From Mimachlamys varia (Eukaryota > Mollusca > Bivalvia > Pectinida > Pectinidae), in contig OX392536.1 of assembly GCA_947623455.1 (NCBI GenBank), positions 34,229,465 to 34,293,464 of the forward strand: a stretch of DNA of 64,000 nt. Reading direction: 5' to 3'. Below, one piece after another: positions 25,222 to 54,626 of the stretch. A program made the translations under genes and the position numbers. Below the pieces are notes generated by a model. The model saw only the letters and a program-made list of their open reading frames with translations, searched no databases and was not told the DNA's origin. The first letter of the stretch is position 1. Each line of letters begins with the position of its first letter.

Positions 25222-26006
25222 AAGAGGCCCAGATGGCCTGTATCGCTCACCTGGATACATTGGTATCTAGGTAATCATGGTAAAATATTTTCTGTCTTGT
25301 CGCATCCCTCAGCCCCCTTTGGGGGAGGGGGGGGGGTCAGACCCACCATTAGTACAATTTTGAATCCTGAGCACCTAAAGATGCTTAATTTCTACCAAAT
25401 AAGGCTGATTTCCAATCAGTGAGTTGCTTAAACCAATATAGCTAAATATCCCTTTTTGGCCCCGCCCCGAAGTCCCCTAGGGGGTCAGTTAGTCCCAACA
25501 TTAGTACCATTTTGAATTCTGAGCACCCAAGGATGCTTCCTGCCAAATAGGACTGATTTCAAATCAGTGGTTAAGGGGAAGAAGTCGCTTAAACCATGAT
25601 ATAGCTAAATAACCCTTTTTGACCCCGTCCCTCAGCCCCCTTGGGGGGGGGGGGGTTCAGTCCCACCATTAGTACAATTTTGAATCATGCGCACCTAGGG
25701 ATGCTTCCGGCCAAATAAGGTTGATTTCCATTCAGCGGTTATGGAAAATAAGTCGCTCATATCAATATAGCGAAACCCTTTTTCGGCCCTGCCTCTCAGC
25801 CCCCTAGGGGGTCAGTCCCACCATTAGTATATTTTTGAATCATGGGCACCTAAGGATGCTTCATACCAAATTAGGTTGATTTCCTATCAGTGGTTATGGA
25901 GAAGAAGTCGTTTAAATAATTGTTGACGGACGACGGACGGACGGACGACGGACGCCATGGTATGGCATAAGCTCACCTCAGTCCTTCGGACCAGGTGAGC
26001 TAAAAA
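25222..26006. mobile_element. Dispersed element with four internal tandem units
   Basis: Left end: aagaggcccagatggcctg, then gctcacctgg. Right end: ccttcggaccaggtgagcta. GCTCACCTG and CAGGTGAGC form inverted termini. Inside are four ~165-175 bp repeats, each with ctcagcccc...gggggtcag, ccaccattagtac, tttgaat, gagcacctaaggatgcttc and tgatttcc. A gacggacggacg run precedes the right end. No coding capacity. The architecture is that of a non-autonomous DNA element. Confidence 0.75.
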
Positions 26007-27239: not shown

Positions 27240-27352
27240 AATCGCAAATTAAGCACACTCTTAATTTAGCACAATCTGGATTTAGCCCAATATTAATTAG
27301 CACAAACTTTATTTAGCACAAACTTTATTTAGCGCAATCTTAATTTAGCGGA
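27240..27352. repeat. Short tandem repeat, ~20-bp units
   Basis: Five or six degenerate units of the type tttagcacaaactttattta; the clearest are at 27300-27350. Confidence 0.7.
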
Positions 27353-33660: not shown

Positions 33661-33829
33661 CTAACGCGTCTTCATGGAGATCAGGTTCCTCATCATGTCG
33701 AAGCTGTTGCCGTCTGGTTGTACCGAGTGCCTCGTTCCGTCGTCGGCCACCACATCCAGATAGCCATACTCATCCAGGCCCTTAATGGTGACATCAACAT
33801 TCTCCTGCTCCAGACGTACCCGGCTTTCA
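33661..33829 (-). CDS. HLCS: HLCS coding exon 11 (821-876) and stop
   Basis: Acceptor GTTGACAG|TGAAAGC, completing the split Ser from exon 10. Encodes ESRVRLEQENVDVTIKGLDE, then YGYLDVVADDGTRHSVQPDG and NSFDMMRNLISMKTR, followed by TAG at 33663-33661. This is the SH3-like C-terminal cap of the ligase. Confidence 0.95.
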
Positions 33830-36800
33830 CTGTCAACGTAATATAACTCAATTACTATAGCTAGCTTTGGTTGGTGAAAATCACAATAAGTTTTGTAATA
33901 AGAGTGTAGCTCTCGGGCGCCCGAACAAAGCTTTTTGAGCGTAAACAGAGTTGTTTCCCCTTGTTACTACCCTTTGCCTTTCATTTTTTTTCAAACCGGA
34001 AACACATCATGCAATGAAGTAACGTCACACTCAGCTTTCATCGGTTATTTCGAGAATGTTAAAAATAATTGATTTACTGATTTAAAAGCTACGCTCTTTT
34101 AAGGCTTTGCCTTTGTCATATTGAATGTTAATATTATGTTATCCATGTGATTAACTTCTCTTATATTCTGTCTCGCTTTTTTTATTATCTTTCCATGTTT
34201 CAAAGGTAGCTACAATTTATCATTTGTATGTTAATCACTGTATCATCATTCCTTTAAAAACATATATAGATTAGCAGTATTGGTAATCGTCCAACCGAGT
34301 ACATACATGTATTGGAGCAGCTAGACTTACCTTATGGTATAAGTTACCCCAGTACATACTCACACTTGAAATAAAAGCTTACTCTACAGACTTACTTGTG
34401 CAGATAACATCATAAGTGTAGACTCAACCCCTTCATATTTAGCCACAGTTAGTGATATACAGATACCTATAATGAAGCTGCCATTGGCACCATACACTTA
34501 TTAATTACATGTTTGGAGTATACTCACCTAAATATGTAGTCACCAATACAGTCTTATACATGTAGCTACCTATGGCCAGTATATAGGTTCAGACTCACCT
34601 GTGTATAGACAGCAATATAGAAGTACTAGTTGTACATTTATCTATAGCCAGTATATAAGTTCAAACTCACCTGTGTGGCCAAAAATGTACTTTTAACTAT
34701 ATATATATATATATATATATATCAAGTATAGGTTCAAACTCACCTATGTTGCCAGTGAAGGATGAAACTCACCTGTGTAGCCAGTATATAGGTACAAACT
34801 CACCTGTGTAGCCAGTATATAGGTACAAACTCACCTGTGTAGCCAGTATATAGGTACAAACTCACCTGTGTAGGTACAAACCCAACAGTATAGGTACAAA
34901 CCCACCAGTATAGGTACAGACTCACCAGTATAGATACAAACTCATCAGTATAGGTACAAACTCATCAGTATAGGTACAAACTCACCAGTAAAGGTACAAA
35001 CTCACCTGTGTATCCAGCGTTGGTGGTACAAACTCACCAGTATAGGTACAAACTCACCAGTAAAGGTACAAACTCACCTGTATAGGTACAAACTCACCTG
35101 TGTAGCCAGCGTTGGAGATACAGCTGTAGGAACTGTTCTCCTTCGTCAGCCTGGAACTGGTTCATTAACTGTTCCATGATGGACACTGTACGGCCTACCA
35201 GCTGTTCCTTACTACACACACCAAGTGTGTCGCCCTTCTCACTGTTGTGGCGCTCGATCAAGTCGTTGATACAAATTGTTGGGTTCTTGTTGCTTACATT
35301 AAATCCACAACCTAAAAAAAAGTAGAATTAACACATTTGTTTTCTTTGTAAATCCTAGAAATAGAATGAAACAGGTTTTACTACTAGTTTCTGTTTATTT
35401 TATTATACGTTACATAAATATTATCTTATATGGAGTGGTCATATAGTTGATAGATTTATTCACTATCAATCTAAACAGATCATCAGCTGAAACTTGAGGA
35501 TTACAAGACCTAAGGAAAAGGCATATATGGGCCACCAGATACTTTTACCTTCGTTCGTGTACTGTAAAGCCAATATATTATTGTGTGGAGTTTTTTGCTT
35601 TATTCAGCCTCCAAACTGATCGCGGAGTGAAACTTTCGTGCTGTTGTCATGCTATTTTGCACATGTATTATATACTGCAGAGTTTGAGTGGTGTTAAATA
35701 TGTTTGTGTGTGTTTATATTTGTGGAGATATAATGCCAGCAAAATAAGTGAAAATTACCACACTGCAAATAATTATATTACATGAATTCCTCAGGGGATT
35801 GAACCTACAGCTGCAAAATCACTGAACATTGATGGAAAAAAATTGTTTTTTCTTCCTTTCTCTTCTCTGAAACCTGTGTTATTTTTGTTATTTTAATTCA
35901 AAAATACTTAAAGACTACTGCATTTATCAGTTAAATATTCTATCCTAGTTGTCTCCCTTTGTACTAATATTTACCAATGTTTGCTTTCAGCGTGCCATCA
36001 ATGATAGTAGACTTGATGACAACTCCTCCAAGCTTCATCTTGTTACTGAAGTAAATATCATTGGGCCACTTCAGTCTCAAGTCAATGTCCTAAAACAGAA
36101 TTTTATCAAATTTGCATAATTACATTCAAATATATTAACATTTTAATTTCCAAACCTAGGTTATAAAATTGTGGCAAACTCATTCTTGTTTTTTCCCCCA
36201 TTTCTGCCTCTTATTAATGAAAAAAGAAGGAATCAAAACATTATCAAATAATAAATAAGAGAGAGCCCCTCTTTACCCTAGGGATGCTCAATTGGACTGA
36301 CATTTGATCAAATCCCTCCATTCAAACTGAAGGAAAATATTTTCAATTATTCTATCACTTAAATTCCCCCCGATAGAGTCTCCCACATTTGTCCTTATAC
36401 AGGCTAGTGATGCTCCAAGTTGATTCAAAATGAAATTGATCCCAACCCTTCCTGAAAGATTATCTGGACGTTTGGGTTTCAAGTGATAGTCCTTTAATGC
36501 TTTGTCTCAAACTCAAGTTGTGAAATGGGTGAAAAAGATGGTACATAGCGTCTTTAAAATAAGTTTGAAAATATACTCAGGAATAATATGAAATTTATAA
36601 TATACTACTGCACATGTAATTATATAATTCAAAGCTAATTATTGAATTGAAAATGATTATGCAGCTGAACATTTTAAACATTTCATACATTTGGGTTGTA
36701 TTTAGTCAAACAAATGTTAAATTGTAAGATCCTTCATTCATAAAAAAAGAGAAATGTATTTCTAAATAAAGGTATAGTGGCAAATGTTCATCTCATTTCC

Positions 36801-39800
36801 AAAATTTAAGTCCACGATGGGGATGACCTTGACCTACCTTGTACCCTGATAGTGAACGCACACTCTCAACGACAGCCAATGAGGTGATGTGCTGGAGGTA
36901 GGACGCGTGTCGGCCGAGGGGACTGTCCATAGGTACACTGACAAGGAGGGAGAACATGGCACAGCCCACCGGACTCAGCCAAGCATTGCCCCCGCGACCT
37001 ACAACACAGTACATCAAACATGTCTACTATTAACGTCAATACATGCATTGTATTGTCAATGCAAAACCATACCAATATACCGTAATTTCCTGTGTATTAA
37101 TTGCCCGTGGGCTATACAATTTTTATATCAGAAGATGTCTAGTGCGGGCTATCTACTGATGCAGACTATCTGTGTTTTTTAAAACCAAATTATTAAATAA
37201 TGCGGGCTTTACGTTGTTAAATGTTTCCACTTTTATCAACATTTAAATCTACACTATTTGTAAACAAAATATAGCATTGATAAGTTTATATAGAGATATA
37301 GTTATACACATAAACATATATAATTATTTACAAAATAAACACAATATTTCCATCATATGTCTCTGATTTCCAACATTCAAAATAATTAATCACATACGAA
37401 GTACACTTGTACTCAGCAAGTATACTTTCCACGTATACTCCGCGGGCAATCTGCACTGCCAGTGCGGGTTAACTGGAATTTATTTTACAAAAATGCCTTA
37501 ATTTACTTCCCGCAGGCTATACCCCGGTGCGGGTAATACACAGGAAATTACGGTAAATACAAAATAACAATCCTTATCAACACTACAATACATTGTCAAC
37601 GTCTATTTGTAAACATTTTCTTCAGGTTGGAAATTATGATTTATGTTAAGATTATTTTACACAATCAATATATGTTTCATGTGACATTTCGATGACTAGT
37701 AAGTTTATATCCTGTCACCTTCATCAGACTAATGACCAACAAAGCGTATGCATACAACAGTTGTAAAATTTGTACGAGTTGGTAAATGACCAATCGAGTC
37801 CAGTTATTGTACCGAAATGAAAAGATTGATCTACACTTTGTTTATGACTTGGTCATAGATGTGCGAGAGTCTGTGGCCCAATCATCCTGATTTGGAACCG
37901 GCCTACTGTGGCGTATCCAGATGGCTTCTTTGATCTGTCGCCTCAGCAGATTTCTCTCTCTGTGTAACACTTTGGAGTTTTCCCAGTCAATCATACGATA
38001 GCTCAGTACGGCATGGTCTGTAATTGCCGATTTATTTATCTGAGACTTTGCCTGCTTATTTTCTGATCTGTTGAATTTCTTTCCTTCTTGAGTGTCAGTA
38101 TCTTTCTTTACTTCACCAAGACAAACACCAAAACATTTTCCGTCTCTCCAATATATGATGCGTTGCAGTTTTGGCATCCGATCTTGTACACGCATTCTGC
38201 AACGTTTTCTTTCAGTGTTTTATCCTTAGGATGTTACGGAGTGTTTTGTGTGGCTTCATGGCTGTTGCTATGCCATGACTGCGATATATCCTCTGGCTGG
38301 TTTCAGATATGCCTTTGATATACAGGATGACCACTTGACCTTTTGTTTTGTTCTTATCCTTAATTAGTCTTTTATTGTTTCCCCCCCTTACTTTGACAGT
38401 GCTGTTCTACTCGTTTTAGGGCCCATTCTGGATATGCACATGTTTTCTTTGCCCTAGCAATGTGTTTCTGCTCTTGCAATTAGTCATGCTGATGACATGC
38501 TGTTTGGTTGTGTAAAATAATCTTTACATAGATGTAAACGTCTGAGGTATAGAGTCAGTCTCCATTGTATTCTACAACAATACAATGCTCTTCCTTTATA
38601 GGGATTTGACAGCTAGACAACACTCTTCACTATAATGTATCAAAGATCAAAACACATTTTCAATATATAAAACTTAACATAATTAGTAACCACAATTTTG
38701 GCTGAATTTTATACGTTCTAAATATCACCTTAGAATGTTTTTTTTGCTGATTTGGTAGAACCTTCGGCGTATTATACGCCTTAATTTTTTTACATGTTTT
38801 ATGTATTCTGTTTATGTGATGTAACGTGTATTTTATGTGTCTTGATAAAGGGGCAGATAGCCTTGAAAATTTGACAATTTAATTGTCTGTACTGTCGCTA
38901 TTACTTCCACGATCATAAACTTAACATGTATAAGATGTGAAGTGGGTTTACACATGTGACTAAGTAATAAGGTACAATGTCGCCTGTGATTTGAAACATT
39001 GTCCAACCTTTTCCACGTGTCTGTTTTCCGGGAATGGCAATCACTCCAACACCACTGGGAACATGGAACTGTAATCTGTAAACACATAAACCTGTACAGG
39101 TGACACACTGGTAAACATGGAACTGTAATCTGTAAACACATAAACCTGTACAGGTGACACACAGGTAAACATGGAACTGTAATCTGTAAACACATAAACC
39201 TGTACAGGTGACACACTGGTAAACATGGAACTGTAATCTGTAAACACATAAACCTGTACAGGTGACACACTGGTAATCATGGAACTGTAATCTGTAAACA
39301 CATAAACCTGTACAGGTGACACACTGGTAAACATGGAACTATAATATGTAAACACATAAACCTGTAAAGGTGACACACCGGTAATCATGGAACTGTAATC
39401 TGTAAACACATAAACCTGTACAGGTGACACACTGGTAAACGTGGAACTGTAATCTGTAAACACATAAACCTGTACAGGTGACACACAGGTAAACGTGGAA
39501 CTGTAATCTGTAAACACATAAACCTGTAAAGGTGACACTGGTAACCATGGAACTGTAATCTGTAAACACATAAACCTGTTCAGGTGACACACTGGTAAAC
39601 ATGGAACTGTAATCTGTAAACACATAAACCTGTACAGGTGACACACTGGTAATCATGGAACTGTAATCTGTAAACACATAAACCTGTACAGGTGACACAC
39701 AGGTAAACGTGGAACTGTAATCTGTAAACACATAAACCTGTAAAGATGACACTGGTAACCATGGAACTGTAATCTGTAATTACATAAACCTGTACAGGTG

Positions 39801-42800
39801 ACACACTGGTAAACATGGAACTGTAATATGTAAACACATAAACCTGTAAAGGTGACACTGGTAACCATGGAACTGTAATCTGTAAGCACATAAACCTGTA
39901 CAGGTGACACACTGGTAAACATGGAATCTATATAAACAGCAATATAACTAATTCAGGTGTCATTTAGGTTATAGAATCTGTTTATAGAATTGGTACACGG
40001 ACAACATGTAAATAACATGTTTAATTCCTATTCAAAGTTGTTTTCAAAAAAATAAAAATAAAGTATATCACTAAGAATACCTGAAGCCTAAAGAAGTTTG
40101 TTTGAGTTGTTAATGTTTTGTCCTGTTTACAGCTAAGGTCATTAAATTCTGATATGCCAGATTTTAGTGGTGGGGAAAAGCCTGAGTTCCTGGAGAAGAC
40201 CACTGACCAACGGCCAGTACCTAGTGACTGCCCCACTTAGGTCTCAAATCTGTGACCCAGAGGTAGACAGCTAGTGATAGCAGAATGCCAGACACCTCAA
40301 CTACTCCCCCACGGCAGCCCCCCTGTGTCTATATCAACAATTAATTCATGTATAACGTGAAAAACTAAAAGTGTCTTTGAGATCAAATTTCTCGAGAATA
40401 CTCAAAATGTGTATACATATTTCAGCTGTAAATGTATCCCAAAACAGTTACCATTGAGTTGTATGGCTAGAGTATGATGTCTCTGAGTGAAACAGACTGA
40501 TAACATGGACTCACTTGTCAAACAAAGACATAGTGGTAGGCAGTCCAGTATTACTTGTCAAACACGGATATAGTGGTAGGCAGTTCAGCATTACTCACTT
40601 GTCAAACAAAGGCATAGTGGTAGGCAGTCCAGTATTACTTAATTGTCAAACAAAGAGATAGTGGTAGGCAGTCCAGTATTACTTACTTGTCAAACAAAGA
40701 GATAGTGGTAGGCAGTCCAGTATTACTTACTTGTCAAACAAAGAGATAGTGGTAGGCAGTCCAGTATTACTCACTTGTCAAACAAAGGCATAGTGGTAGG
40801 AAGTACATCGATCACCATCAGTGTGTTCCCCAGTGTGGTAGAGGTAAGGTTTTTGAAATAAACTTCATCATTGAAGAACTGTAGAACTCCCTGACCAGTG
40901 GTCTGCCCGGTAACCACGGGCAACAGACTGTCGGTGACTGGCCCTTGGCTAGGTGAGTACTCCGGTACAAACTGCAGAGTGACAGTGTTGGACACCAGTT
41001 TACCGTCTGGAGTCAGCTTTGTTCGAAGACTCTCAAGAAACTTGGACTTCATACTCTGTACAACAAAAATAACAAATCCAAACTAAGGAGAATGCTGGTA
41101 TGTAAATATATATATATAAACTGAATGATTTTTGATTACTGATTCTTTTTGACAAATTGAAAATGGAATATTTTCTATCCATTATACAGGATTTATTTAT
41201 TGAAGTATAAACTGTCTTGTATGTATCTGTGCTAGAAGAGGTATTTAATTGCAGTAAAAATTGTAGTCTTTAACTAGTGCTACACACAGATCCTGTTCTG
41301 TTCAATTCTATATGTATTTCATCAGTTCCAGTCAAACTTCCAATTCAATTAACTTGATTTAATTAACTTAATTGTCCCACCAACTTGGACATAACAATGT
41401 TGGACTGTCATTAAAGTTCATATACCAAACATATGTTTGTCCATGCATTAAACAGGAGATACATTGTATTGTAATAAGGCATTATGAATTTTTCATGATC
41501 AAAGTTGAGACAGGAGTTATGATAAGTCATGATATATACACACCTGTGTGTTGGAGAGGAGGTATATTTAGGTACACACCTGTGTGTTGGAGAGGAGCTC
41601 TATTTAGGTACACACCTGTGTGTTGGAGAGGAGGTATATTTAGGTACACACCTGTGTGTTGGAGAGGAGCTATATTTAGGTACACACCTGTGTGTTGGAG
41701 AGGAGCTATATTTAGGTACACACCTGTGTGTTGGAGAGGAGCTATATTTAGGTACACACCTGTGTGTTGGAGGAGAGCTATATTTAGGTACACACCTGTA
41801 TGTTGGAGAGGGGGGGTATTTAAAAGGTACACATCTGTGTGCTGGAGAGGAGGTATATTTAGGTACACACCTGTGTGTTGGAGGGGAGCTATATTTAGGT
41901 ACACACCTGTGTGTTGGGGGGTCATACAGTCAGGTGTAATTAGGTACACACCTGTATGTTGAACGAGAGCTATATTTAGGTACACACCTGTGTGCTGGAG
42001 AGGAGGTATATTTTGGTACACACCTGTGTGTTGGAGAGGAGGTATATTAAGGTACACACCTGTGTGTTGGAGAGGAGCTATATTTAGGTACACACCTGTG
42101 TGTTGGAGAGGAGCTATATTTAGGTACACACCTGTGTGTTGGAGAGGAGGTATATTTAGGTACACACCTGTATGTTGGAGGAGAGCTATATTTAGGTACA
42201 CACCTGTATGTTGGAGAGGGGGGTTATTAAAAAAGTACACATCTGTGTGCTAAAGAGGAGGTATATTTAGGTACACACCTGTGTGTTGGAGGGGAGCTAT
42301 ATTTAGGTACACACCTGTGTGTTGGAGAGGAGCTATATTTAGGTACACACCTGTGTGTTGGAGAGGAGCTATATTTAGCTACACACCTGTATGTTGGAGA
42401 GGAGCTATATTTAGGTACACACCTGTGTGTTAGAGGGGAGCTATATTAGGTACACACCTGTGTGTTGGAGAGGAGGTAACAGGCTGTAAACACTGGTACA
42501 GAACTGGTGTCTGTGTCCACTCCCAGGTCCTGTAATAGTTCTTTTAGCATATCACATCGGTCTTGGTTGGATTGTTTTAGTACCGCAAACATCTCATCCG
42601 TACAGGCATGCTCAGTTGGGTCAATATTGAGTAAAACCTGCAATTATGAAGTACTTGTCAAAAGTTGTTCAGCCATGCATTGGTTTTTAATGAAAAAATA
42701 TTTATCTGCAATCTAGTGTTAAATATAATTATAAAAATATACCTCTGCACATATTTACATTTTATACAAAGAATATTGTTTAAAATGATCTTCCTTCATA

Positions 42801-45800
42801 TTAAATGTGATAATTCTGAAAATTGACTAGGTAATTTATACATTTCTTGAAGCAGTAAATATAAGCCTCTTACCTGAGACATAATGGCATGCCCTGTCTC
42901 TGACCCCTGTGACTTGACATCTATAATTACTGGTTGACCATTGTGGTTTGTCCCCAGTACAGATAACGCGACATTTTCTCCTGTGACTGCTTTAGGATCA
43001 TACCAGTGACTTCCGCTCAGCACCGACACTCCCTTCCATGTACGGAAATCAACTTTGGAAATCCCTACTTGACCCTGTTGCTGAATCTCATGTCTGGCCA
43101 CAAACATGGCATCGAATGGACTACCGAAACTCAGAATGATTCCTCCGCTCTCAAAATACCGGAGGAAAGCATCTCCTACCCCATCATGGAGACTGTCACA
43201 AGACACCACCAGAAGAGCGGAGTTATCTGCCCATGGATCCCTCTTTACTTGATCATGGTTTAAGGCATAAATAACATAACGCTCTAGATTAATACACTGC
43301 TCCAATGTAGCTCTCATACCTGCAAATCTTTTCTCTGTGTCTTTTTTCCCACAATAAACTAGGATGTTTGGGGGTTTCATATTTGCTTGCATCATTCTCA
43401 CACGTTCTACCGATTCTAGGAACTGAGTGTCAAATTCACAGGGCTCTTCACCGCAACCACTCTCTGCCTCGTCCTCCGCAATACTCTCGCTGTATGGTGT
43501 AGGAGTAGTGGAATCCAACAGATTGGAGCTACAGATGCTGGTCCTTGAAGCCAAAGACTCGTTGGACCAGTCACAGGAAACAGTTTCACCTAGGCGGTCC
43601 CGCTGAGCCTTCAGTAGGACGGACTGGATGTCGTTGGCGTGGAGTTCTCCGTGGAGGTTAGGCTCCAGGTCAGTTAAGTCCTCTCCTGCTTGGCACTCCT
43701 CTATCTGTGGGACAAGGTCTGCTGCGGATCCACAAGTCTTCACACCTACAACAAACATGTCTATCATCAAAATATTATCTTCATTATTAGATGCAGTTTG
43801 ACATCAAACACTTCCATGGTTTTTCTTTAATTCCTTCATATTTATGTCCAAACATATCACTCATTTAGGAACTGTTTTTTGAAAAAGGCTAGTATATATA
43901 TGACTATCTGTGAAAATGTATTTCGACCAATCACTTTAAATTTCTGACTAGAATCAAAATGGCAAAAGCTGTTCAACTCCTTTTATGGAATGTTACATAA
44001 TGTACATGCCATTATAGGCAGACTACCCCATACTAGAATACGCATGCACCATGAAGTCTTTACAGTAACAAGATGGCACATAAATTGTGGTATACATACA
44101 TGCAATACAAAGTCTATGATCTAAATAACTATTAACTTTAAATGACTTCTAACTTGAAAACTAATAGATCTTCAAATTTTATTAACGACTATTTCTAGTC
44201 TACCACAATACCCTGTTTTATTTCACTGTCATGATCAGCCCATTGTATAATTTAAACGTGCTTACTGTTGGATAAATATATGCTATATGCTACTTGTGGT
44301 ATATGACCTGCCATACTTTTGATTGGTTGAGAAGTTGAACTTTGACCGAGTGACTGTTAACATCATCACCACTTGGCGGGAATATATATACGGGATGATA
44401 CGTTTTGCGCATATCATAGTCTGCGGTTCACCCCGGCTGGACTGAGATTGTGATTGGAACAGGTCACATGACTTGTAGTTATTGGATATGGAATTCATTT
44501 CAATCCTTGTTTAATGATTTCCTTAAAGTTACAAGACACTTGCTTTAGCTCATGTCTTTTGTAACTCTAGGAAAAGTAATTAACTCATGAAATAAATTCC
44601 ATATCCAATAACCACTCACAGTTTACTTAAATAACCCATTACAGCAATACATAAGACATAACTATATATATCAATGACCTAGAAATTCAGTCAACAAAAT
44701 ATTGATCACATCATCTTTATTTTTTTCGTTCTCTGAATTTTATATGCATCCTGATTACAAGTTTTAGGTTCAATTTTTTTTTCTTTCAATCCCCAACAAC
44801 ATATACAATGTATCACATACATGTACAATTTATCAATGAATTTTTTGAAATGTTAATTTTCTGAGGATAAAATGATCTTTTAAATAACTTCCAGTGGGAA
44901 AGTGGGAAATTAGTGATTCCTAATAAAGTCCACAAATTAAATTAAACCTCCCTGGTATTTAGTTTTTCTTACAAGTCATTATAAGCATTGTACAAGTTAG
45001 AGTGATATTGGAACATGATCAGCCACATGTGCTAGCTGTTTCATATACCTATATAGGATTTGCTACCTGTAGCTGTTTCATATAGCTAAATAGGAGCTGT
45101 TTCATATCCCTAAATAGGATTTACAAAGAAACCTTATGATATTGTATGTATAGTCATGTAATTTTTACCTCATAGTTAATTATTTCAAGTTTAACTGTTG
45201 ATTTATGTACAAATCTAATAGTAGTTTGTCCTGTGTGAGCATGTAGGTCAGCTTTATATAGCTAGCTGCCTTTCCTGATGTGTATATTTTATGTACATGT
45301 ACATTGACAAGATCAAATATTCAATCAGACACACTGCAATATCAACCTTGTGTATCATGTATGGCTTTTTTTGAGGATGAGGCATTTTAATTTTGCACTC
45401 AAATCACAGGGACATGTATAATAAGGCAAATAGGCCTAATTAGCGATAAATACCTTTATAATTATATTGTCAATATACATATATATAGGTATTTTTAGTC
45501 TTAATATACATGACCCTGTGCTCAAAAGGAGTGAATGCTTACCTAACTACTGAATCATGATCATCCTGCTGCATGTTTTATTAATGTAATCACTGAACAT
45601 TTTGTTCTGCTACATAAATTAGCAACCCAGATTGCCAGGTGCAAATGCATATATATATACATGTATATATAACAGTTTATGTCTAGAAGAACACCCGTTG
45701 TAATTTACAAGTCAGGGCAAACAATGATTAAGCAGATCGAGAGATGCCTGGATCTTCTCTTTTCGAAATTCTTGATTAATATTACAGCTTCAAAATGTAA

Positions 45801-48800
45801 ATATTCATGGACATGCAAGTTTGATATCACATATGTGACCACAGGGACATGTAGAGACTTTGATGATGAAAGTAAGTGACAATATATATTGGTATTTATC
45901 ACTAAATTTTATCATTATAATTAAAAGTCTATACATGTCCCTGGGATGTGACTTATAATATATTACATGTATCAAAGATTATAATGTTTGTCGTTAAGGC
46001 CTGATCATGGACCAGCAAGTGTAGGTTTAAATATATCACTGACATTCCAAAACACAGAAAGCTGAAGGTGCAAAAACTCCTGTGTGAAATCAAGAGAGTA
46101 GATTTCTTGAAAAGATCCTGCCATTTCCTGGAACCAGGAGTATCAGCCAGTCCATCTTTCCAGACACTGACAAAAACATCTGATCAGGGAAACTGTTGCC
46201 AGACAGCCAATTAATATACATTTGTACAGCAATAGGACACATCAATAAATGATACCTCTCTGTACAGACATATCCTGAAGTGTCAGTAAACATACAGATT
46301 TATAGTTATGTATGTACAGTTATTGTTAATACACATGTATGGCACCCCTCCAGCTCCCTCAGTCCAGTACACATAATTATATAATCATAGGAAAACAATG
46401 TTGCATAGCACAACAATATAATATGCATGACTAATTACCTACATCATGTAAACATACATAAAACCCAGCAAACCTGTAGTTCCTGAGTCTGCCACGTTTT
46501 ACCTCGTGTTTGTCTGTAGTCACCACCAGTACAACATATCACCTGTACAGCTAATGAGTCATGTAGGATATTCTGTGAAACTGGGTTTTCCCAGCCTATA
46601 TAGAAGTGTGATATCATACGTAGCTTTGAGCTAAATATAGCTACAGCATAGATTCACCATTGAAGTCATATTTGAACTCTTCCAATTCAAAAGGTGGGTT
46701 AGATCATAGTGAAATTTCAGGGGTGAACGTGTGATATATAGTTCTGGCTGCCATTAAATCAATAGTGAAGTGTGTTACAATATAGTCCTTAAATGTCTAT
46801 AAATAATGTATTGAAATATTTACCACCCTTTAAGTATTAATGATAACAGCATGTTTTATGGCAGGCATATATGTACTGAAATACTGAGATCAGGTCATGC
46901 ATGAAATACATATATATCTTGCGAGATTTATTTATCATTTTAATTAATCATTATATTATAGTGACTGTATATTTTTCTATTAATTTTGGATAATTATTTG
47001 AAAGAAAAAAGAGCCAAAATTGGCTAATATTATATATAAACTTGATACTTTATTTAATCTGTACATGTGTTCATTGCACGATTTCATCATTTTGAATCAA
47101 TTCAAAATTTTGTTTCACAAAAAAAAATGATATATAATTATCTGCTTTAAATATGAGTCTACATATAAGCTATATGCATTGCAAAAAAAGCCAATAAAAC
47201 CTATTTAATTCATGTAATTTAAATTACGGTTTCAAATCATTTACACAGTGCTAGGTCACTTTTTTATGTGAATTAAGCCACATTTTATTAAATTACTAAA
47301 GATATTTTCTCAGCAAAACAGAGAATGGCAAACATCAAAATACTACTTTAGGGCAAGATCAAATAAATTTCCAACAGTTGTTTTGAACTTCATCACGTTT
47401 ATATATAATTATATCCATTATTCGTTGAAATTCTGGTTTAACAGTTTGTGATCAAATCAAGAAGAAATAAATATGCCATGCTGAATTCATTTCATTACAT
47501 TTAAAATGCCTTAAAAGGGCATGTTGATTCCTTAAGTCACAAGTTCATATAAATGCCAGAGTTGATAGCATTATCACAATCAGAATCAGTTGTTAAACAC
47601 GAGGATAGATATAAGGGCCCCTGTGACTTTGATCTTTGATGATTACACTAGCGGATCCAAAGGGGGGGGGTCCTAACTCCCAGCCCCCCCCCCCCCCCTC
47701 CTTTTTTGGAGGAGGAAATTTTTTAATAGTCTTAAAAATGGAAATTTTGACCGTTGTATCATTGACATAGCATCAGCTGGACCCCTTCCTTTCGAAAAAT
47801 CCTGTATCCGCGCCTGGATTATAATCCAACAAATGAATTTGTTTTCCTGCAGAGCAGTTCTGGTGTGATAACTGGTATATATATATGCCCATCTATAGGT
47901 ATATAATCTACGAAGAAAAGCATCCGCACAATGATGTTGTACTGGTACAACTATTACTAATTTCAAATTCCCCCCAGCTTATATCAATGCACGCCATTCA
48001 AATGCACACTGAGGCACTACAATAATTTTGTAAGAATTTACCACCACGAATACCCCACCTCCACTTTAACGGCCCTGATCAATATTCAGGAATTAACGAA
48101 GCTTTCAGCGAGATGTCTCACTTTTAGACTGATCCACGCCCCGTCATCACTGTCAATGACAAGCAGAATCAGGATTCAACCACATAAGCAACAGAACATT
48201 GCTTCATTAGGGTTACACTAAATATCCAGTGTGTACAGACCTATACCAATTAAAGCAGTTGATATTGAGACTTCTTAATTGTCAAAGATGTGCCTTTTGT
48301 AAGGGTGCTGCGCTGTTATTTTCATAAGGTTTTGACGAGTTCAGGGCAGAAAGAATCATGACAAATAAAGCAAGCAGTGCTGTTGCAGTCTACCTTTCTG
48401 CTGATTGCTAAATTTGGTGATTGCCTCGCTACAATTTGAGTTAAAGCTATAAATCAACAGGGGAGAGGGGTCAATTGTACACTCTATATACAACATATAA
48501 TATCATCATTTCCATAAGTTCCATATATAGCATCAGTGATATAAGTTCTGTTGATATGTTGATATCCATACATGTAAATAAATATAATATTTTCATTGCA
48601 AAGTATTCAAGAAATAACTGTTTTTAGAAACATTGCGTATATGTATACTGTAGAAGCTCGATGAAATCTGAGACTCCATGGAAAGAGATCCTCAGAATTT
48701 TGGAGAAACTATTACAATTTTGTGATGATTTTTTTATATTATAGTTGAAGCTATCATAAAGGTTGAAATTTGGTTTAATGTTTTGCTTACATGTTAATTG

Positions 48801-51800
48801 AAGGGCGTGTCATGATTTAGAGGAGGATGACTATATACTGCAAAGATTATAGCTTTATAAGATCATTCGCACATAAGTGTTGTTTTGCAGTATATATAGA
48901 GGATGAAAATTTTCATTCTGGACAAAGCAGACATTTATTTCAATCAGTGATAACAATTTAATTATAAACAATTACTACTCAAGATGAGAATATTCTTTCT
49001 GAATGTTTCCTTACACTGTAAAATACCAGGTACTGGTAATATGTACCAGATTATACGGAGATCATGCAGATTTATTATTCATGAAAATTTGTTAAAACCA
49101 TTCCAAGAATCAGAATAGCAGGCAAACTCCTGATATTAGTTTGTTAAAGTTCACCAGATCACACACTTTCTGTTATCAATTTCATGTTGTTTTTGGTTTG
49201 GTTTGTTGTTTGTGCTTTAATCTAAATATCCCCAATTAAAAGCTATATGGTTAATGAAGGACGAGACAGGCAATATGGGTGGAGGCAAACTAGCCACTGT
49301 GACCTGTAGCCAGCACCAACTATAGACTCCCCTACAGAAGGCCCGAACCAGCAACATAATGGTAGACTAGGCCTAAACCAGCAACCCAATGGTAGACTAG
49401 GCCTGAACCAGCAACCCAATGGTAGACTAGGCCCAAACCAGCAACCCAATTGTAGACTAGGCCTGAACCAGCAACCCAATGGTAGACTAGGCCCGAACCA
49501 GCAACCCAATGGTAGACTAGGCCTAAACCAGCAACCCAATGGTAGACTAGGCCTAAACCAGCAACCCAATGGTAGACTAGGCCTAAACCAGCAACCCAAT
49601 GGTAGACTAGGCCTAAACCAGCAACCCAATGGTAGACTAGGCCTAAACCAGCAACCCAATGGTAGACTAGGCCTAAACCAGCAACCCAATGTTAGACTAG
49701 GCCCGAACCAGCAACCCAATGGTAGACTAGGCCTAAATTGTTCGTAGATGGTCAGACACTTTAACAGCTGTAATACATACAGCCTACACAATGCCTACTG
49801 AAACGATTATCTATAAAGAGGTAATCAATACCCTGTGTAATGTAGCAAAATGAACAAATAATAACTTACATGTAATACGAGGCAGAACAGAACCAACTTA
49901 TATCATGTAAAATTGTGGGTATCAATAGAAAGAGGCACTATAAAGATAAACAAAAAAACAAATATTCTGGTAAACATTACAAATTGATCATCAGCTTGGT
50001 TGTTATTGATTAAGGGACAAAGATCAATTTCCAGAGTAAGACAGTCTCAGGTATGAAAGAACTAGAGCTGTCACCTACATGTAAGTGAGGATGGCTAACT
50101 AATTAACCCAACCCCCAACCCCTCCATGTAGATAAAATACTGGTACATGAAAAATAAATAAAAGGTGCAAAACTCTTTCAAAAGTGGTCAAAATGCACAA
50201 GTACCTCAGGGGGGCATATATTGCACTAACCCTTTCCACAAAAGAAATATGTTGAAAACTGAGAGATTGCATAGCCAAACAAAACGGTGTTCATTTAAAG
50301 GGGGATAACTCTTTGTAAAAGGTCGAAAATGGAAAGCTATATCAGGGGGCACATCTCGATATTGTACTGGCTATTCAAACAAAATTCTTAAAAGAACTGT
50401 TGAAAACTGAGCAAATGCATAGCCGATTAGCCAGACAAAGTTGTGTTAACTTTTATATGAAAGGGGTATAACTCTCTGCAAAAGGTTGTAAATGTAAAGT
50501 CACTTCAGGGAGCACATCTCTTATTGTACTGGCTATTCCCACAAATCAAATCAAAGGCTGTTAGGATACAAGATGAATCCAGTAACCCCCCCCCCCCCCC
50601 CACACACACACACACACACACACTTCGTTGAGGGGGTGGGGGTTAAAAAAAAACTCATTGGTAATTTAAAGTATCCACAGTCCCCCACCTGAGTAATTTA
50701 AAGGCCCAATATACGTAACTTCAGGAAATTTTTCGTGATTCTGAAAAATTCTGAAAAAAATCCAGTTGATAACCATGCAAAAATAAGCCTAAAACGAAGG
50801 AAACTTGAGCGGTAACTAACAAGAAACTCTTGACAAAAAAATCCAAAGAATTGAAAATAATTCAGGTGGGGCCCACTTCAACAAAAACCGAAGGTAGAAG
50901 ACAGTTAAAAATGGACGCGTGTTTACAAATACCGTGTTAAAACTGCTGCTGTACGGGTAACCGCTTAAGAATTCATCTTGAATATTGTTGATATCAGTTA
51001 ATCTTAACTAAATCTATGAATATAAAAAGTTATTAGGCTTGATTTTCGCTTCAGGTTTTTCCGAAAGTTACGCATATTGGGCCTTTAACATTAACAAACT
51101 TTTATTTGTATCAGTATACATGGATCAAAGATTAATTACACTGACAAAAGTCCTCAAATACTAAGTAACACATGCTGTATCATTGATACTGGAAAATGAT
51201 GTTTTTTAATGTTTGTAGGGTACAAAATACTTTGAAATTTATATATCGGACAGGGAAGTCATTAAAAAGTATCATGACATTGAAAATCATATTTGTTTAC
51301 ATTGTTATAATTACTTCCTTAATTGTCACATATACTTCAGGTGAAATAGTATGTGTAAAGGGAGGTGCTGGATAAGATCGTTTCAATGGCTCAGGTCAAA
51401 TCAAAGGTCATAGTAACCTACTTTTTACACTTGATACTCTGATATATACTAAAATGTGATTGTGTATACAAAACTTACTGACGATTCTCTGTATGAGTAG
51501 TTCCTCGTCCAGTGTCAAAGCACCCTCACAGAAAGCAAAGCAGAGCGTGACTAGCTCCTCAAGAGAACACCGCATCAGGATCCCAAAAGGAGGCCCTGTC
51601 CTCCAGGCCAAGGCAGTGCCATGACTAGCCACCTACAGACAAAGGTTACAGTGTAGATAATTAGGTACAACTGTCAAATATCTATGTTAATGTTACTCCT
51701 AATCAAATTACAAACATCCTCTACCCCTACCATCACCAAACATTGTATATTATACAGGTTACTTATATCACAATAAAATCTTTTTTAAATGATGTTTGTT

Positions 51801-54626
51801 GTAAACTTATTCAAATAAATTTGTTGAAATCCTGTTTGAAAATTAGGAACATGAAATTTATCATTAGTAGGGACCATCAGAAAGATCTACATTAGGCATT
51901 CATTTTACTGAAGTTTACCATTTTAAAAATATCTGCGTGTTCCAGGTTTCCTGCATAAACAATTTAAAAACATATTATACTGAATCTCTTTGACACATAC
52001 ATGTTTCATGCTACTATATGAGTCATGACTTGAATTTGCCTTTCTCCAGGATTATTTTCCATGAAATATTGATCTTCTGAATTTCATCAAATACTGTATG
52101 TATACATTTTTCCTGTGGTTCTCCCAGAAAATGTCATAGTTACTTACATGTATTTTCTGTGGTTCTGGAACTGAGAACTCCCTGCGGAGGAAGTGCCTGC
52201 GATCTGTAGGTCTGGCTGCCTCCAGTAGTACACTGATGTTCTCTTCCCCACCCTCTGTATGGTAATGCTTCTGCATGGCATAATATGATGTCCAGTCTGC
52301 AAGGCTCACCTCTACCTACATTGTACGTGAATGAATATTGTTAGATTTCAGAGGTGAGAACTGAATACTCGACATTCTACATTCAACCTTGTGACACACT
52401 TTGGAAACTTATCCTGGGGTGGGGCATGTAGGATTGGATCCTGAGGTAGGAGTTTGTTGGATGCATGGGATCACGTAGAGGGGGTAAACATTTATTGGAT
52501 GGGATCACGTAGAGGGGGAAACATTTATTGGATGGGATCACTTAGAGGGGATAAACGTTTATTGGATGGGATCACGTAGAGGGGGTGAACATTTATTGGA
52601 TGGGATCAAGTAGAGGGGGAAACATTTATTGGATAGGATCATGTGGAGGGGGTAAAAATTTATTGGATGGGATCCAGGGGAGGGGCTAAACATTCATTGG
52701 ATGGGATCATGTGGAGGGGATAAACGTTTATTGGATGGGATCATGTGGAGGGGGTAAGCGCTTATTGGATGGGATCATGTGGAGGGGGTAAATGTTTATT
52801 GGATGGGATCATGTGGAGGGGGAAAACGTTTATTGGATGGGATCATGTGGAGGGGTAATCGTTTATTGGATGGGATCATGTGGAGGGGTAATTGTTTATT
52901 GGATGGGATCATGTGGAGGGGTAATTGTTTATTGGATGGGATCATGTGGAGGGGGTAAAAGTTCATTGGATGGGATCATGTGGAGGGGGTAAACGTTTAT
53001 TGGATTTGATCATGTGGAGGGGGTAAAGGTTTATTGGATCGGATCATGTGGAGGGGATAAACGTTTATTGGATGGGATCCCGGGGAGGGGATAAATGTTT
53101 ATTGGATCGGATCATGTGGAGGGGATAAACGTTTATTGGATGGGATCCCGGGGAGGGGCTAAATGTTTATTGGATTGGATCATGTGGAGGGGGTAAACGT
53201 TTATTGGATGGGATCCTGGGGAGGGGGTAAACATTTATTGGATGGGATCACGTAGAGGGGGTAAACGTTTATTGGATGGGATCACGTAGAGGAGGTAAAC
53301 GTTTATTGGATGGGATAACGTAGAGGAGGTAAACGTTTATTGGATGGGATCACGTAGAGGAGGTAAACGTATATTGGATAGGATCATGTGGAGGGGGTAA
53401 AACGTTTATTTGATGGGATCATGTGGAGGGGGTAAATGTTTATTGGATTGGATCATGTGGAGGGGATAAACGTTTATTGGATGGGATCATGTGGAGGGGG
53501 TAAATGTTTATTGGATGGGATCATGTGGAGGGGGTAAAGCGTTTATTGGATGGGATCCCGGGATGGAGGTTTGTTTGATGGGATCCAGGGTTCGGGATAT
53601 GTTGGATTGGATCTTGTGGTTGGGGTTTGTTATAGATATAGAGATAAATATAGTCCTTCCTTCTGTTCACCTGTATACAGGGAGTAGCTTATAAAACTGG
53701 TCAATCGGAATTTAAGTTTATAGAATAAATTTGGTCAATATGAGAGAAGACAGAAGTGTCAAATTTGAAACCGGATTATTTCTTTTTAACAATATCATTC
53801 AAATTCATTATATGTAATCTTGAAAGAGTAATGTTAAAATTCAAATATAACAAAATACAATAACAACTTGGTAATTCATGTACTAGCAACCATGTTAAAT
53901 CAAAGAAATAGTCAAAACAACCTGATTAAAATACAGATCTTCACTATACACTATTTCATAGCATATAGTCACTATCATAGTGACTATAGTGAAGATCTGT
54001 ATCTTAATCGGATTGCAGTCAAAATTGATTTAAATATCTTGGAAAGTGTTTGCCTACTTTCTCTTGCATTTGTATTACTACTATTAATGAATCTTTTCTT
54101 TGGCAAGAATTAGTACTAAAATAAATGTAAGTACAATTGAATTTATTCTTGCCAAAGAGCAAATTTCACTTCTTTTTATAAATAGTTAAAATCTAGGACA
54201 ATTTATAAATAAAAGAGAAGTATTTTTTTATTCGATTACTTTCCCTGGAGGTACAGTACACAAATTAACCTAATTGGTGTTGAAGTTTTAATTTAGTTTT
54301 TTTGTCATATATAATCAATTACGATTATATATATTGTGCAAAAACCATCATTTATTTGCAAGCATTGAAGACCTTACCTGTGGGATCAAGGTTGTCAGCA
54401 CAGCTTTCCTGTTGGGGTTCAGTAGGCATCTGGTTTCCTGTGCTGCAACATCAACATCTAGCGACTTCATCAGGTCATCAAATCCTTGTGGTGACCTCTG
54501 AACCAGGAGACTTAACCCTTGTGACCCTACGACCTTGGAAATGGCTCGTCTGAACATGTTTTTTCTAGTCCACTGTACCAGCCACTGGACCAGGTACAAC
54601 CCTGTATAACCCAGTGATAGAATCAT
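33661..54626 (-). CDS. HLCS: Holocarboxylase synthetase (biotin--protein ligase), 11 coding exons
   Basis: HLCS uses ATP to activate biotin and attach it to lysine in the carrier domains of biotin-dependent carboxylases, in cytosol and mitochondria. Eleven exons joined here at GT-AG sites keep frame throughout and give 876 residues, longer than the 726-residue standard human form. In order: a hydrophobic then basic N-terminus (MILSLGYTGLYLVQWLVQW, then RK/RR), a VSLADWTSYY segment, a central glutamine-amidotransferase-like domain (ILVYCGKKD ... DPWADNSALLVVSCDSL), and the catalytic domain. The latter has KQTRGKGRGGNAWLSPVG (about 652-669, biotinyl-AMP loop), LKWPNDIYF (717-725), the GGVVIKST strand, GCGFNVSNKNPTICINDLIE (750-769) and a C-terminal cap ending DGNSFDMMRNLISMKTR. 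Catalytic motifs are intact. The introns contain four junction-derived minisatellites plus several mobile elements. Identity is certain; the exact splice choice at the weak exon 7 donor is less so. Confidence 0.95.
34570..35097 (-). repeat. 31/20-bp array copying the exon 10 donor junction
   Basis: On the minus strand the long units read CTGGCTACACAG|GTGAGTTTGTACC, identical to the exon 10 end and donor over ~25 bases. One unit near 35000-35030 contains a longer exon copy (ACCAACGCTGGATACACAG). Shorter 20-bp units keep CTG|GTGAGTTTGTACC. About fourteen copies hold an exact GTGAGT; a few are mutated. Confidence 0.93.
34698..34722. repeat. (AT)n microsatellite
   Basis: About 12 AT units inside the exon 10-derived array. 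Confidence 0.9.
35098..35311 (-). CDS. HLCS: HLCS coding exon 10 (750-821)
   Basis: Acceptor CTTTTTTTTAG|GTTGTGG, donor GGCTACACAG|GTGAGT, 214 nt ending in phase 2. Encodes GCGFNVSNKNPTICINDLIE, then VGRTVSIMEQLMNQFQ and LYLQRWLH. Its last bases are copied in the adjacent array. Confidence 0.95.
35975..36089 (-). CDS. HLCS: HLCS coding exon 9 (712-750), KWPND motif
   Basis: Acceptor TCTGTTTTAG|GACATT, donor AACATTG|GTAAAT, ending in phase 1. Encodes DIDLRLKWPNDIYFSNKMKL then GGVVIKSTIIDGTLKANI. KWPND is a hallmark of BirA-type ligases and lines the biotin/ATP pocket. Confidence 0.95.
36838..36998 (-). CDS. HLCS: HLCS coding exon 8 (658-711)
   Basis: Acceptor TGTTGTAG|GTCGCG, donor TACAAG|GTAGGT. 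Encodes RGGNAWLSPVGCAMFSLLVS through QHITSLAVVESVRSLSGYK, the core of the catalytic domain. Confidence 0.95.
37080..37553. mobile_element. 474-bp MITE, TA target duplication
   Basis: Inverted termini CCGTAATTTCCTGTGTATTA, flanked by TA at 37078-37079 and 37554-37555. GC-rich subterminal parts (gcccgtgggctat, tgcgggctatctac, ccccggtgcgggtaa). No coding sequence. A Tc1/mariner-mobilised MITE is likely. It lies in HLCS intron 7. Confidence 0.88.
37842..38400 (-). pseudogene. Penelope-like retroelement remnant (GIY-YIG end)
   Basis: In minus-strand order: VILYIKGISETSQRIYRSHG, MKPHKTLRN, VYKIGCQNCNASYIGET (the GIY-YIG-type start), then after a frameshift FGVCLGEVKKDT, NKSAITDHAVLSYRMIDWEN and REAIWIR-like QIKEAIWIRHSRPV. 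This order matches the reverse-transcriptase tail plus GIY-YIG endonuclease of Penelope-like elements. Frameshifted and truncated, sitting in HLCS intron 7. Confidence 0.85.
39008..39075 (-). CDS. HLCS: HLCS coding exon 7 (635-658), biotin loop
   Basis: 68 nt, acceptor GTTTACAG|ATTACAG, donor GGAAAAG|GTTGGA. Encodes KLQFHVPSGVGVIAIPGKQT then RGKG, the strand and first half of the biotinyl-AMP loop. It restores frame between exon 6 (phase 2) and exon 8 (phase 1). The donor lacks the usual A at +3. The acceptor is one of about sixteen near-identical ones. Confidence 0.85.
39076..39930 (-). repeat. 54-bp array copying the exon 7 acceptor junction
   Basis: About 16 units including the exonic one, a few of them ~50 bp. 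On the minus strand each has TTTATGTGTTTACAG + ATTACAGTTCCATG..., that is, the last intron bases and AG of intron 6 plus the first bases of exon 7. Frames of 110-201 codons open across it because 54 is divisible by three; they are not genes. Confidence 0.95.
40115..40325 (-). mobile_element. tRNA-derived SINE, inside HLCS intron 6
   Basis: On the minus strand a tRNA-like head shows an A-box-like TAGTTGAGGTGTCTGGC and a B-box-like GATTTGAGACC. It is followed by a body with ctggccgttggtcagtggtc and aactcaggcttttcccc, a pattern common in invertebrate SINEs. Boundaries are approximate. Confidence 0.55.
40497..40774 (-). repeat. 44-bp array copying the exon 6 donor junction
   Basis: Six intronic copies after the exonic original. 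Each carries CCTACCACTAT(G/C)(C/T)CTTTGT + TTGACAA followed by a GT site. Donor copies GTGAGT or GTAAGT stand near 40513, 40598, 40684 and 40729. The copy near 40556 reads GTAATA, and the one near 40642 has lost GT. The copy near 40598 matches the exon end and donor over about 32 bases, including the PTTMPLFDK codons. Confidence 0.93.
40775..41055 (-). CDS. HLCS: HLCS coding exon 6 (542-635)
   Basis: Acceptor TTTTTGTTGTACAG|AGTATG, donor TTTGACAA|GTGAGT, 281 nt ending in phase 2. Encodes SMKSKFLESLRTKLTPDGKL to VLPTTMPLFDK. The last ~26 coding bases are reproduced in the downstream intronic array. Confidence 0.93.
41541..42457 (-). repeat. 36-bp array copying the exon 5 donor junction
   Basis: About 25 units in intron 5. 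On the minus strand each is GTGTGTACCTAAATATAG + CTCCTCTCCAACACACAG: half intron start, half exon 5 end. Each therefore recreates CACACAG|GTGTGT. It starts directly at the exon. The 237-codon minus and 196-codon plus frames through it arise from the unit length (12 codons) and are not genes. Confidence 0.95.
42458..42637 (-). CDS. HLCS: HLCS coding exon 5 (482-541)
   Basis: Acceptor AATTGCAG|GTTTTACTC, 180 nt, phase 0. Encodes VLLNIDPTEHACTDEMF ... VPVFTACYLLSNTQ. The last 18 exonic bases (CTCCTCTCCAACACACAG) and the donor GTGTGTACC are the unit repeated through the adjacent array, so the end is set by protein homology (YLLS) and by phase with exon 6. Confidence 0.9.
42874..43745 (-). CDS. 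HLCS: HLCS coding exon 4 (191-481), amidotransferase-like domain
   Basis: The largest exon, 872 nt. Acceptor TGTTTGTTGTAG|GTGTGAAG, donor ATGTCTCAG|GTAAGAG. An acidic, serine-rich linker is followed by the domain typical of eukaryotic HLCS beginning NILVYCGKKD. It includes DPWADNSALLVVSCDSLHDG and GGIILSFGSPFDAMF, and ends GSETGHAIMSQ. Confidence 0.95.
44474..44614. repeat. Foldback element in HLCS intron 3
   Basis: The outer arms gttattggatatggaattca and its complement near 44590-44612, plus an inner complementary pair (aagttacaagacac / gtcttttgtaact), give a ~140-base imperfect hairpin. Confidence 0.7.
45026..45122. repeat. Small tandem repeat, three units
   Basis: Three copies of gctgtttcatat(a/c)(c/g)ct(a)a, each followed by a taggat- or tagga-type spacer. 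Confidence 0.6.
46672..46732 (+). repeat. Dispersed repeat family C, copy 2
   Basis: actcttccaattcaaaaggt ... gtgaaatttcaggggtgaac, matching 33427-33482. Confidence 0.55.
47647..47817. mobile_element. hAT-like MITE
   Basis: The left end ctagcggatccaaagg and right end gtatccgcgcctgg are inverted (CGCGGATNCA core). The flanks tgattaca / ggattata resemble a decayed 8-bp duplication as in hAT elements. Poly-G and poly-C runs lie inside. Confidence 0.45.
49340..49740. repeat. 30-bp minisatellite, ~13 units
   Basis: Unit ggcctaaaccagcaacccaa + tggtagacta, in register with almost no length change and few substitutions. The minus frame of 182 codons (RPSLPLGCWF repeats) results from the 10-codon unit and is not supported as a gene. 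It is not adjacent to an exon. Confidence 0.95.
50161..50560. repeat. Three ~155-bp tandem units
   Basis: Each has aactctttgcaaaaggt, a tcagggggcacatctc block, attgtactggctattc and gttgaaaactgag. Diverged; probably a dispersed element with internal repeats. Confidence 0.65.
50587..50625. repeat. Poly-C / (CA)n microsatellite
   Basis: A C run of about 14 followed by about ten CA units. Confidence 0.9.
50695..51089. mobile_element. TTAA-flanked MITE, copy 2
   Basis: Termini TTAAAGGCCCAATATACGTA and TACGCATATTGGGCCTTTAA, ~390 bp, with TTAA at both edges. The best-preserved of three copies. Confidence 0.85.
51479..51632 (-). CDS. HLCS: HLCS coding exon 3 (140-191)
   Basis: Acceptor TTGTCTGTAG|GTGGCT, donor ATCGTCA|GTAAGT, ending one base into a codon that exon 4 completes to Ser. 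Encodes VASHGTALAWRTGPPFGILM ... LDEELLIQRIV, still in the N-terminal extension. Confidence 0.85.
52148..52315 (-). CDS. HLCS: HLCS coding exon 2 (84-139)
   Basis: Acceptor AATGTAG|GTAGAG, donor ATACAT|GTAAGT, phase 0 at both ends. Encodes VEVSLADWTSYYAMQKHYHT and a basic stretch (RPTDRRHFLRREFSVPEPQK). A second AG (GAG|GTGAGC) six bases into the exon could be a tandem acceptor. Confidence 0.85.
52425..53640. repeat. 33-34 bp minisatellite, ~35 units, HLCS intron 1
   Basis: Unit aacgtttattggatgggatc + atgtggagggggta, with variants (acgtagagg, ccggggagg). It ends ~110 bp from exon 2 but shares no sequence with exon 1 or 2, so it is not of the junction-copy type. Confidence 0.95.
53918..54012. 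repeat. Foldback element in HLCS intron 1
   Basis: Arms gattaaaatacagatcttca and tgaagatctgtatcttaatc, with an inner palindrome tagtcactatcatagtgacta. Confidence 0.8.
54098..54170. repeat. Short inverted repeat
   Basis: tctttggcaagaatta opposite ttattcttgccaaagag, ~40 bp loop. Confidence 0.55.
54378..54626 (-). CDS. HLCS: HLCS coding exon 1 (residues 1-83)
   Basis: Start ATG at 54626-54624. An in-frame TGA (54638-54636) lies just upstream, with only a TTG between, so this is the first usable start. Donor ATCCCACAG|GTAAGG, phase 0. The N-terminus is a ~19-residue hydrophobic stretch followed by basic residues, suitable for a membrane anchor or organelle targeting. Exon sequence continues upstream as 5' UTR to the acceptor at 54883-54882. 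Confidence 0.85.

Follow-up and report, generated by a model that had tools for sequence, protein, structure and literature searches.

Mirage-like tandem arrays at four splice junctions of the holocarboxylase synthetase gene in the scallop Mimachlamys varia

Introduction

Tandem repeats of intron-exon boundaries are known from amphioxus under the name of mirages, the original paper on the Adh mirages reportedly being that of Canestro from 2002. They were described in the genes BflGb6 and BflGb9, with Adh3 and other loci being cited as well (PMC3087553), and PGBD5 is a further mirage gene, in connection with which troponin C is cited (PMC3902484). In this study, four tandem arrays resembling mirages are described in the holocarboxylase synthetase (HLCS) gene of the scallop Mimachlamys varia. 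The window, which is the whole stretch of DNA that was analyzed, comprises 64,000 nt of contig OX392536.1 (assembly GCA_947623455.1, positions 34,229,465 to 34,293,464 of the forward strand) and has a guanine and cytosine content of 35.4%. All positions given below refer to the window.

The globin mirages of amphioxus number 6 units in one haplotype and 3 in another, regular splicing was suggested to be undisturbed by them, and a route of intron gain via duplication of AGGT has already been proposed for these repeats (PMC3087553). Haplotype length differences as well as reverse transcription PCR of splicing are reported for amphioxus mirages. A preliminary description of the HLCS locus had stated that, as far as its author could tell, no known element family explains its arrays, which is wrong, as mirages are an already described kind. 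Furthermore, in human genes of segmental duplications, minisatellite units averaging 30 bp alter the length of exons and introns and can create introns (PMC2812944).

Four tandem arrays span splice junctions of HLCS

The HLCS gene is located on the minus strand and comprises 11 coding exons, all ten introns being of the GT-AG type (Table 1). Tandem Repeats Finder (TRF) was applied to the complete window and returned 19 overlapping rows. Four tandem arrays span junctions of HLCS, three of them at donors (exons 5, 6 and 10) and one at an acceptor (exon 7), and they extend 18, 30, 25 and 23 bp into these exons, respectively. The preliminary description had reported these four arrays as copies of the adjoining boundary with units of 36, 44, 54 and 31/20 bp at exons 5, 6, 7 and 10, respectively, and TRF recovers both the arrays and the unit lengths, adding a 92-bp unit at exon 10. 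It was also correct in placing an array at both ends of intron 6. Splice-site copies were counted by eye at all four arrays and additionally from a comparison of the units at exons 5 and 6; the counts of retained sites include the real one, and a slash marks the junction.

The unit at exon 5 consists of about 18-20 nt of the exon end and 16-18 nt of the intron. On the coding strand, the exon ends with TACCTCCTCTCCAACACACAG/GTGTGTACC, behind which lie 25 more donors with a spacing of mostly 36 nt. CAG/GT is kept at 24 of these 26 sites, the exon itself ending at 42458. The unit at exon 6 includes about 25-33 nt of the exon end, which reads CTTTGTTTGACAA/GTGAGT and is followed by six more copies, mostly 44 nt apart. 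GT is kept in six of the seven sites, and the remaining copy has TT.

The array at exon 7 lies at an acceptor. Its unit includes about 22-28 nt of the exon start, TTTACAG/ATTACAGTTCCATG, of which 15 copies are found upstream at distances of 52-54 nt. Altogether 16 starts of the form ATTA(C/T)AG were counted, and AG precedes 14 of them.

Exon 10 ends with CTGGCTACACAG/GTGAGT, and 18 further sites lie behind it with spacings of about 20, 31-32 and, at the far end, about 72 nt; GTGAGT is kept at 15 of 19 sites. The TRF rows of this array (31, 20 and 92 bp) lie within 34727-35122, and copies can be traced by eye to 34527. A longer exon stretch (about 18 nt with one mismatch) was seen in only one of the 18 copies and CTGGCTACACAG in three, most others holding just the last few exon bases. 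As most copies hold little exon sequence, exon 10 is the weakest case. The earlier claim that each unit contains the edge of its own exon plus the splice site thus applies to exons 5, 6 and 7, with about 20-33 nt of exon, whereas most copies at exon 10 hold less.

The edges of exons 5, 6, 7 and 10 aligned to their own units with scores of 43, 54, 40 and 38, while the control maxima from about 2000 other exonic 40-mers per junction (1997-2044) were 22, 24, 34 and 25, the margin being small at exon 7. The unit taken at exons 5 and 10 was the copy variant nearest to the exon and not the commonest one.

The units had been described as unrelated to each other in sequence. This holds for 14 of 15 unit pairs, whose similarity is no better than that of shuffled sequences, but CACAGGTG...TGTACCTA is common to the exon 5 and exon 10 units (p 0.003-0.009 against shuffles for one of 15 pairs tried, noticed post hoc). 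Degenerate copies were sought at the other 16 of the 20 HLCS junctions, and none scored better than the best of 60 shuffles. Elsewhere in the 64-kb window the junction units gave only short matches with E values of 0.19 or worse.

The HLCS gene model and its relatives

The model comprises 834 codons including a single terminal stop and thus forms one open reading frame coding for 833 amino acids. Exon 1 probably starts further upstream than modelled, with an ATG near 54626, judging from the translated comparison with relatives. The catalytic and C-terminal domains of biotin ligases were identified with Pfam in the product of exons 5-11. The 833-amino-acid protein shows 91% identity to the biotin-protein ligase of Mizuhopecten yessoensis, 85% to that of Ylistrum balloti and, for two further scallop-like proteins, 84% and 75%, whereas the product of exons 5-11 shows only 46% identity to a Branchiostoma hybrid. 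These values speak for a scallop and against amphioxus as the host. The longest contigs behind the two scallop-like proteins have lengths of 3.7 and 4.5 kb and are too short for a gene of about 21 kb. The alignment with these four proteins is free of gaps at every intron position, and none of the four carries an insertion at the array junctions.

In addition, two inverted copies of CCGTAATTTCCTGTGTATTA enclosing about 430 nt were seen by eye in intron 7 (37080-37553). The pair resembles a miniature inverted-repeat transposable element or another palindromic element.

Table 1. Positions of the HLCS gene, its exons and the intronic tandem arrays in the window
Feature	Position	Strand	Source
HLCS gene, 11 coding exons	33661..54626	-	gene model
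HLCS exon 1	54497-54378 as modelled	-	gene model
HLCS exons 2, 3, 4	52315-52148, 51632-51479, 43745-42874	-	gene model
HLCS exon 5	42458..42637	-	gene model
HLCS exon 6	40775..41055	-	gene model
HLCS exon 7	39008..39075	-	gene model
HLCS exons 8, 9	36998-36838, 36089-35975	-	gene model
HLCS exon 10	35098..35311	-	gene model
HLCS exon 11	33829-33661	-	gene model
Exon 5 donor array, 36-bp unit	41537..42475	-	TRF
Exon 6 donor array, 44-bp unit	40509..40804	-	TRF
Exon 7 acceptor array, 54-bp unit	39053..39926	-	TRF
Exon 10 donor array, mixed 20/31/32-bp units	34527..35122	-	TRF and by eye
Interior array, HLCS intron 1, 34 bp, off junction	52465..53631	-	TRF
Interior array, HLCS intron 3, 30 bp, off junction	49339..49737	-	TRF
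Candidate fifth junction array, 19 bp, neighboring gene intron 1	12168..13239	+	TRF
Interior array, 33 bp x 111, same intron of neighboring gene	13556..17218	+	TRF

Turnover, flanking repeats and reading frame

The copies vary by substitutions and small indels, like those of other minisatellites. In the array at exon 5, the 36-bp period is joined by a second peak at a lag of 408 bp (75% identity), which marks a higher-order repeat. The exon-derived and intron-derived parts of the units differ among copies of the commonest length by 0.06 vs 0.01 differences per site at exon 5 (21 copies), 0.04 vs 0.05 at exon 6 (5 copies) and 0.04 vs 0.01 at exon 7 (12 copies). This shows that the exon-derived parts of these copies lack conservation of the coding type.

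The last six nucleotides of exon 5 (42458-42463) encode the residues T-Q, whereas in the four aligned scallop and scallop-like proteins the first position is A, N or S and the second E. The copies of the array also have ACACAG, as does the exon end, and for this reason homogenization of the array may have entered the coding exon.

The seed at exon 5 is flanked by the imperfect direct repeats GTGTTTAC and GTGTGTAC, which match at 7 of 8 positions at a lag of 36; this level was reached by none of 112 control comparisons at seven array-free donors, a control which applies to the exon 5 pair only. The seed at exon 10 is likewise flanked by imperfect direct repeats, TGTATC and TGTACC, at a lag of 32. 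Direct repeats lying one unit apart across the junction would fit a duplication by slippage or microhomology.

Beyond the donors of exons 5, 6 and 10, the reading frame runs into a stop within 1-3 codons, so that slippage to a distal donor would bring in a premature stop at each of these exons. The array at exon 7 is open in the frame of this exon for 88 codons upstream (39076-39339, repeat LQFHVYQCVTCTGLCVYR).

Array placement in HLCS and the neighboring gene

Two interior arrays are located away from the junctions in introns 1 and 3 of HLCS, so that four of the six arrays of the gene are junction arrays. Only arrays within the two genes of the window and with a TRF score of at least 200 were counted for the placement tests. 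The intergenic array at 25422-25916 and low-scoring rows (25925, 27247-27349, 31827, 34698, 41342, 45071 and others) were not counted. The rows at 52465 and 53541 were joined into one array, as were the exon 10 rows, which were extended by eye to 34527. The start of HLCS was set at 54497 and not at about 54626, with little effect expected on the figures. When six arrays were placed at random in the gene with an exon overlap of up to 40 (or 30) nt allowed, at least four fell on junctions with p 1.7e-5 (3.4e-6 to 4.0e-5 under three settings). These p-values are post hoc, conditional on a gene noticed for its pattern, and take the arrays as independent. The placement far from random which the preliminary description had claimed is therefore borne out in HLCS with that restriction, but the two interior arrays had been omitted from it.

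The neighboring gene on the plus strand shows 84% identity to LOC110445673 of Mizuhopecten and 78% to Pecten maximus. Its exon 1 is located at 12057-12158, and exon 2 starts at about 22213. A 19-bp array begins 9 nt past the donor of exon 1 of this LOC110445673 orthologue and is probably a fifth junction array in an unrelated gene. A candidate exon copy, aligned to it in the register of the donor, agrees at 12 of 15 nt, a score also reached by 5% and 14% of 8000 random 29-mers and by 10% of 49 such sequences centred on AGGTA. As the exon copy is unproven, the array was counted by the position of its edge alone, under a 10-nt rule that was set after its distance of 9 nt was known. Taking both genes together, 5 of 8 arrays are located at junctions compared to 0.37 expected (p 7.8e-6), a value that is subject to the restrictions given above for HLCS alone.

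Intron 1 of the neighboring gene also contains an interior array of 3.7 kb with about 111 copies, whose unit length of 33 bp is divisible by three, and long reading frames are open through it. No further genes were revealed when 3-12 kb and 54.6-64 kb were scanned with Pfam in all six frames, and ten large open reading frames gave only the N-terminal domain of HLCS, below the cut-off (E 1.2e-4), and one DUF, likewise below the cut-off.

Origin of the junction arrays

The reading which we prefer, and to which we give about half of our confidence, is that the arrays are minisatellites of the mirage type, in which a duplication of the junction is tolerated, expanded by ordinary turnover and re-seeded by the exon copy. 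A short tandem duplication across a splice junction would arise by slippage or microhomology. It would be neutral as long as the copy touching the exon is still spliced, further copies falling into the intron. With splicing at the exon-proximal donor, little cost would be expected from a duplication across a donor, since the rest is intron. Slippage and unequal exchange would subsequently expand the array to 7-26 copies. Selection would keep the exonic seed copy intact, so that a shrunken array at a junction could regrow, while one in the middle of an intron would decay; arrays would for this reason gather at junctions and not in mid-intron. The outcome would be longer introns filled with decoy splice sites. 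The structure of the arrays, their exon content and splice-site copies, the signs of turnover and the intact reading frame are direct observations at this locus, to which neutrality, the use of the exon-proximal site and anchoring by the exon copy are added by inference.

Several points weigh against this explanation. At exon 6, no comparable flanking repeat was found at the unit lag. At exon 7, a shift of the acceptor to an upstream copy could alter the protein, with 18 residues gained per unit. Moreover, if placed at random, only about 1-6% of arrays would fall on junctions, so that anchoring would have to carry the excess. Tolerance alone does not account for it, since arrays in mid-intron should be tolerated equally well. 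Of the two alternatives named in the preliminary description, a mutational process and tolerance by splicing, both keep some probability. The excess could be explained by two ideas, either the preserved exonic seed or duplications starting more often at splice sites.

The latter idea, according to which junction arrays are made more often and not kept longer, is a possible but doubtful alternative. A mutational process would start duplications at splice sites, perhaps at ACACAG/GT donors, for example via R-loops, co-transcriptional splicing intermediates or a break-prone motif. It would accommodate the share of arrays at junctions in HLCS alone and in both genes. All three HLCS donors starting with GTG have arrays and none of the seven others does, and ACACAG/GT occurs at three of four array donors if CTACACAG/GTA of the neighboring gene is counted. 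The segment common to the units of exons 5 and 10 points in the same direction. However, every motif pattern was found post hoc among 11 donors; the GTA donor of the neighboring gene breaks the GTG pattern, ACAA/GTG at exon 6 breaks the ACACAG pattern, and one array is located at an acceptor. To our knowledge, there is no mechanism that targets splice sites in DNA, which weighs against this idea as well.

It is unlikely that ordinary minisatellites are scattered at random in a repeat-rich genome and that the gene was singled out because it looked striking in a large scan. The wealth of TRF rows in the window, the interior position of three of the eight intronic arrays, the choice of the gene after its pattern was seen and the late setting of the edge rule would all agree with this. 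The p-values of 3e-6 to 4e-5 for HLCS and 8e-6 with the neighboring gene included speak against it, as do the reports of the same phenomenon in several amphioxus genes.

A function of the arrays is very improbable, be it as donor decoys or U1 sponges that slow splicing or tune the level of HLCS or, at exon 7, through in-frame insertions of 18 residues. The retention of CAG/GT and GTGAGT at most sites of exons 5 and 10 and the open frame at exon 7 would be expected under this explanation, but recent homogenization alone yields the same retention of sites, and the insertion is absent from all four scallop and scallop-like proteins compared. Finally, that the arrays stem from a mobile element, introner-like or other, or are an assembly artefact can be practically dismissed: direct support is missing, although the likeness between the units of exons 5 and 10 could be read that way, while the remaining unit pairs resemble each other no more than shuffles do, matches of the junction units elsewhere in the window are weak, the units hold sequence of the host exon and the copies differ by substitutions and small indels.

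The likeness of the four HLCS arrays to the amphioxus mirages suggests that repeats may preferentially start to grow at splice sites well outside amphioxus, too. That minisatellites of both scallops and amphioxus are born preferentially at splice junctions, chiefly at donors, through a general mutational process of animals is a more speculative extension, which we regard as rather improbable. If it were true, such a process would lengthen introns from their ends and supply raw material for new exons and introns. If the phenomenon recurs in a mollusc and a cephalochordate, junction minisatellites would be a general route of intron growth and splice-site multiplication, as well as a natural test of how the spliceosome chooses one among 26 near-identical donors.

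Comparison with known systems

Introner-like elements form dispersed families whose units carry splice signals. The HLCS units also carry such signals, but they are local and include sequence of the host exon, and within the window they do not recur beyond chance, so that dispersed copies are lacking there.

Intron gain by tandem duplication, as in the RdRp gene of potato, is similar in that duplication of a boundary copies the splice signals (PMC4974935). In contrast, the copies in HLCS are numerous and lie inside introns. The human internal tandem repeats differ from the HLCS arrays in being located in recent paralogues, and seeding at junctions is not described in the accessible part of that report (PMC2812944). 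For an intron minisatellite of abalone, the position of the array relative to the junctions is unstated in the accessible text. No report of junction arrays outside cephalochordates was recognized among the matches listed, which were mostly titles and beginnings of abstracts, with subscription journals sparsely represented; the matches listed for scallops and bivalves gave none either, which is weak evidence of absence. Apart from the amphioxus papers, the matches for minisatellite mirages concerned, judging by their titles or abstract beginnings, pines, lodgepole pine and spruce, and regulatory sites of flies.

The closest likeness is that to the amphioxus mirages of Adh3, BflGb6/BflGb9, troponin C and PGBD5, which, as far as the accessible texts go, are also minisatellite-like copies that span a boundary and include splice sites, at donors or acceptors. 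A tandem repeat across the exon-intron boundary is present in all four HLCS arrays, least clearly at exon 10, and the splice signal lies within the unit; the fifth array in the neighboring gene fails to show an exon copy. The HLCS arrays differ from the amphioxus mirages in being found in a bivalve mollusc, with four of them in one gene, whereas cephalochordates are the only hosts named for mirages in these texts. The name is descriptive, and therefore a scallop as host widens the range of mirages and does not exclude the HLCS arrays from them. The HLCS case thus probably adds a new host phylum and an unusually dense example of mirages, and not a new kind of repeat.

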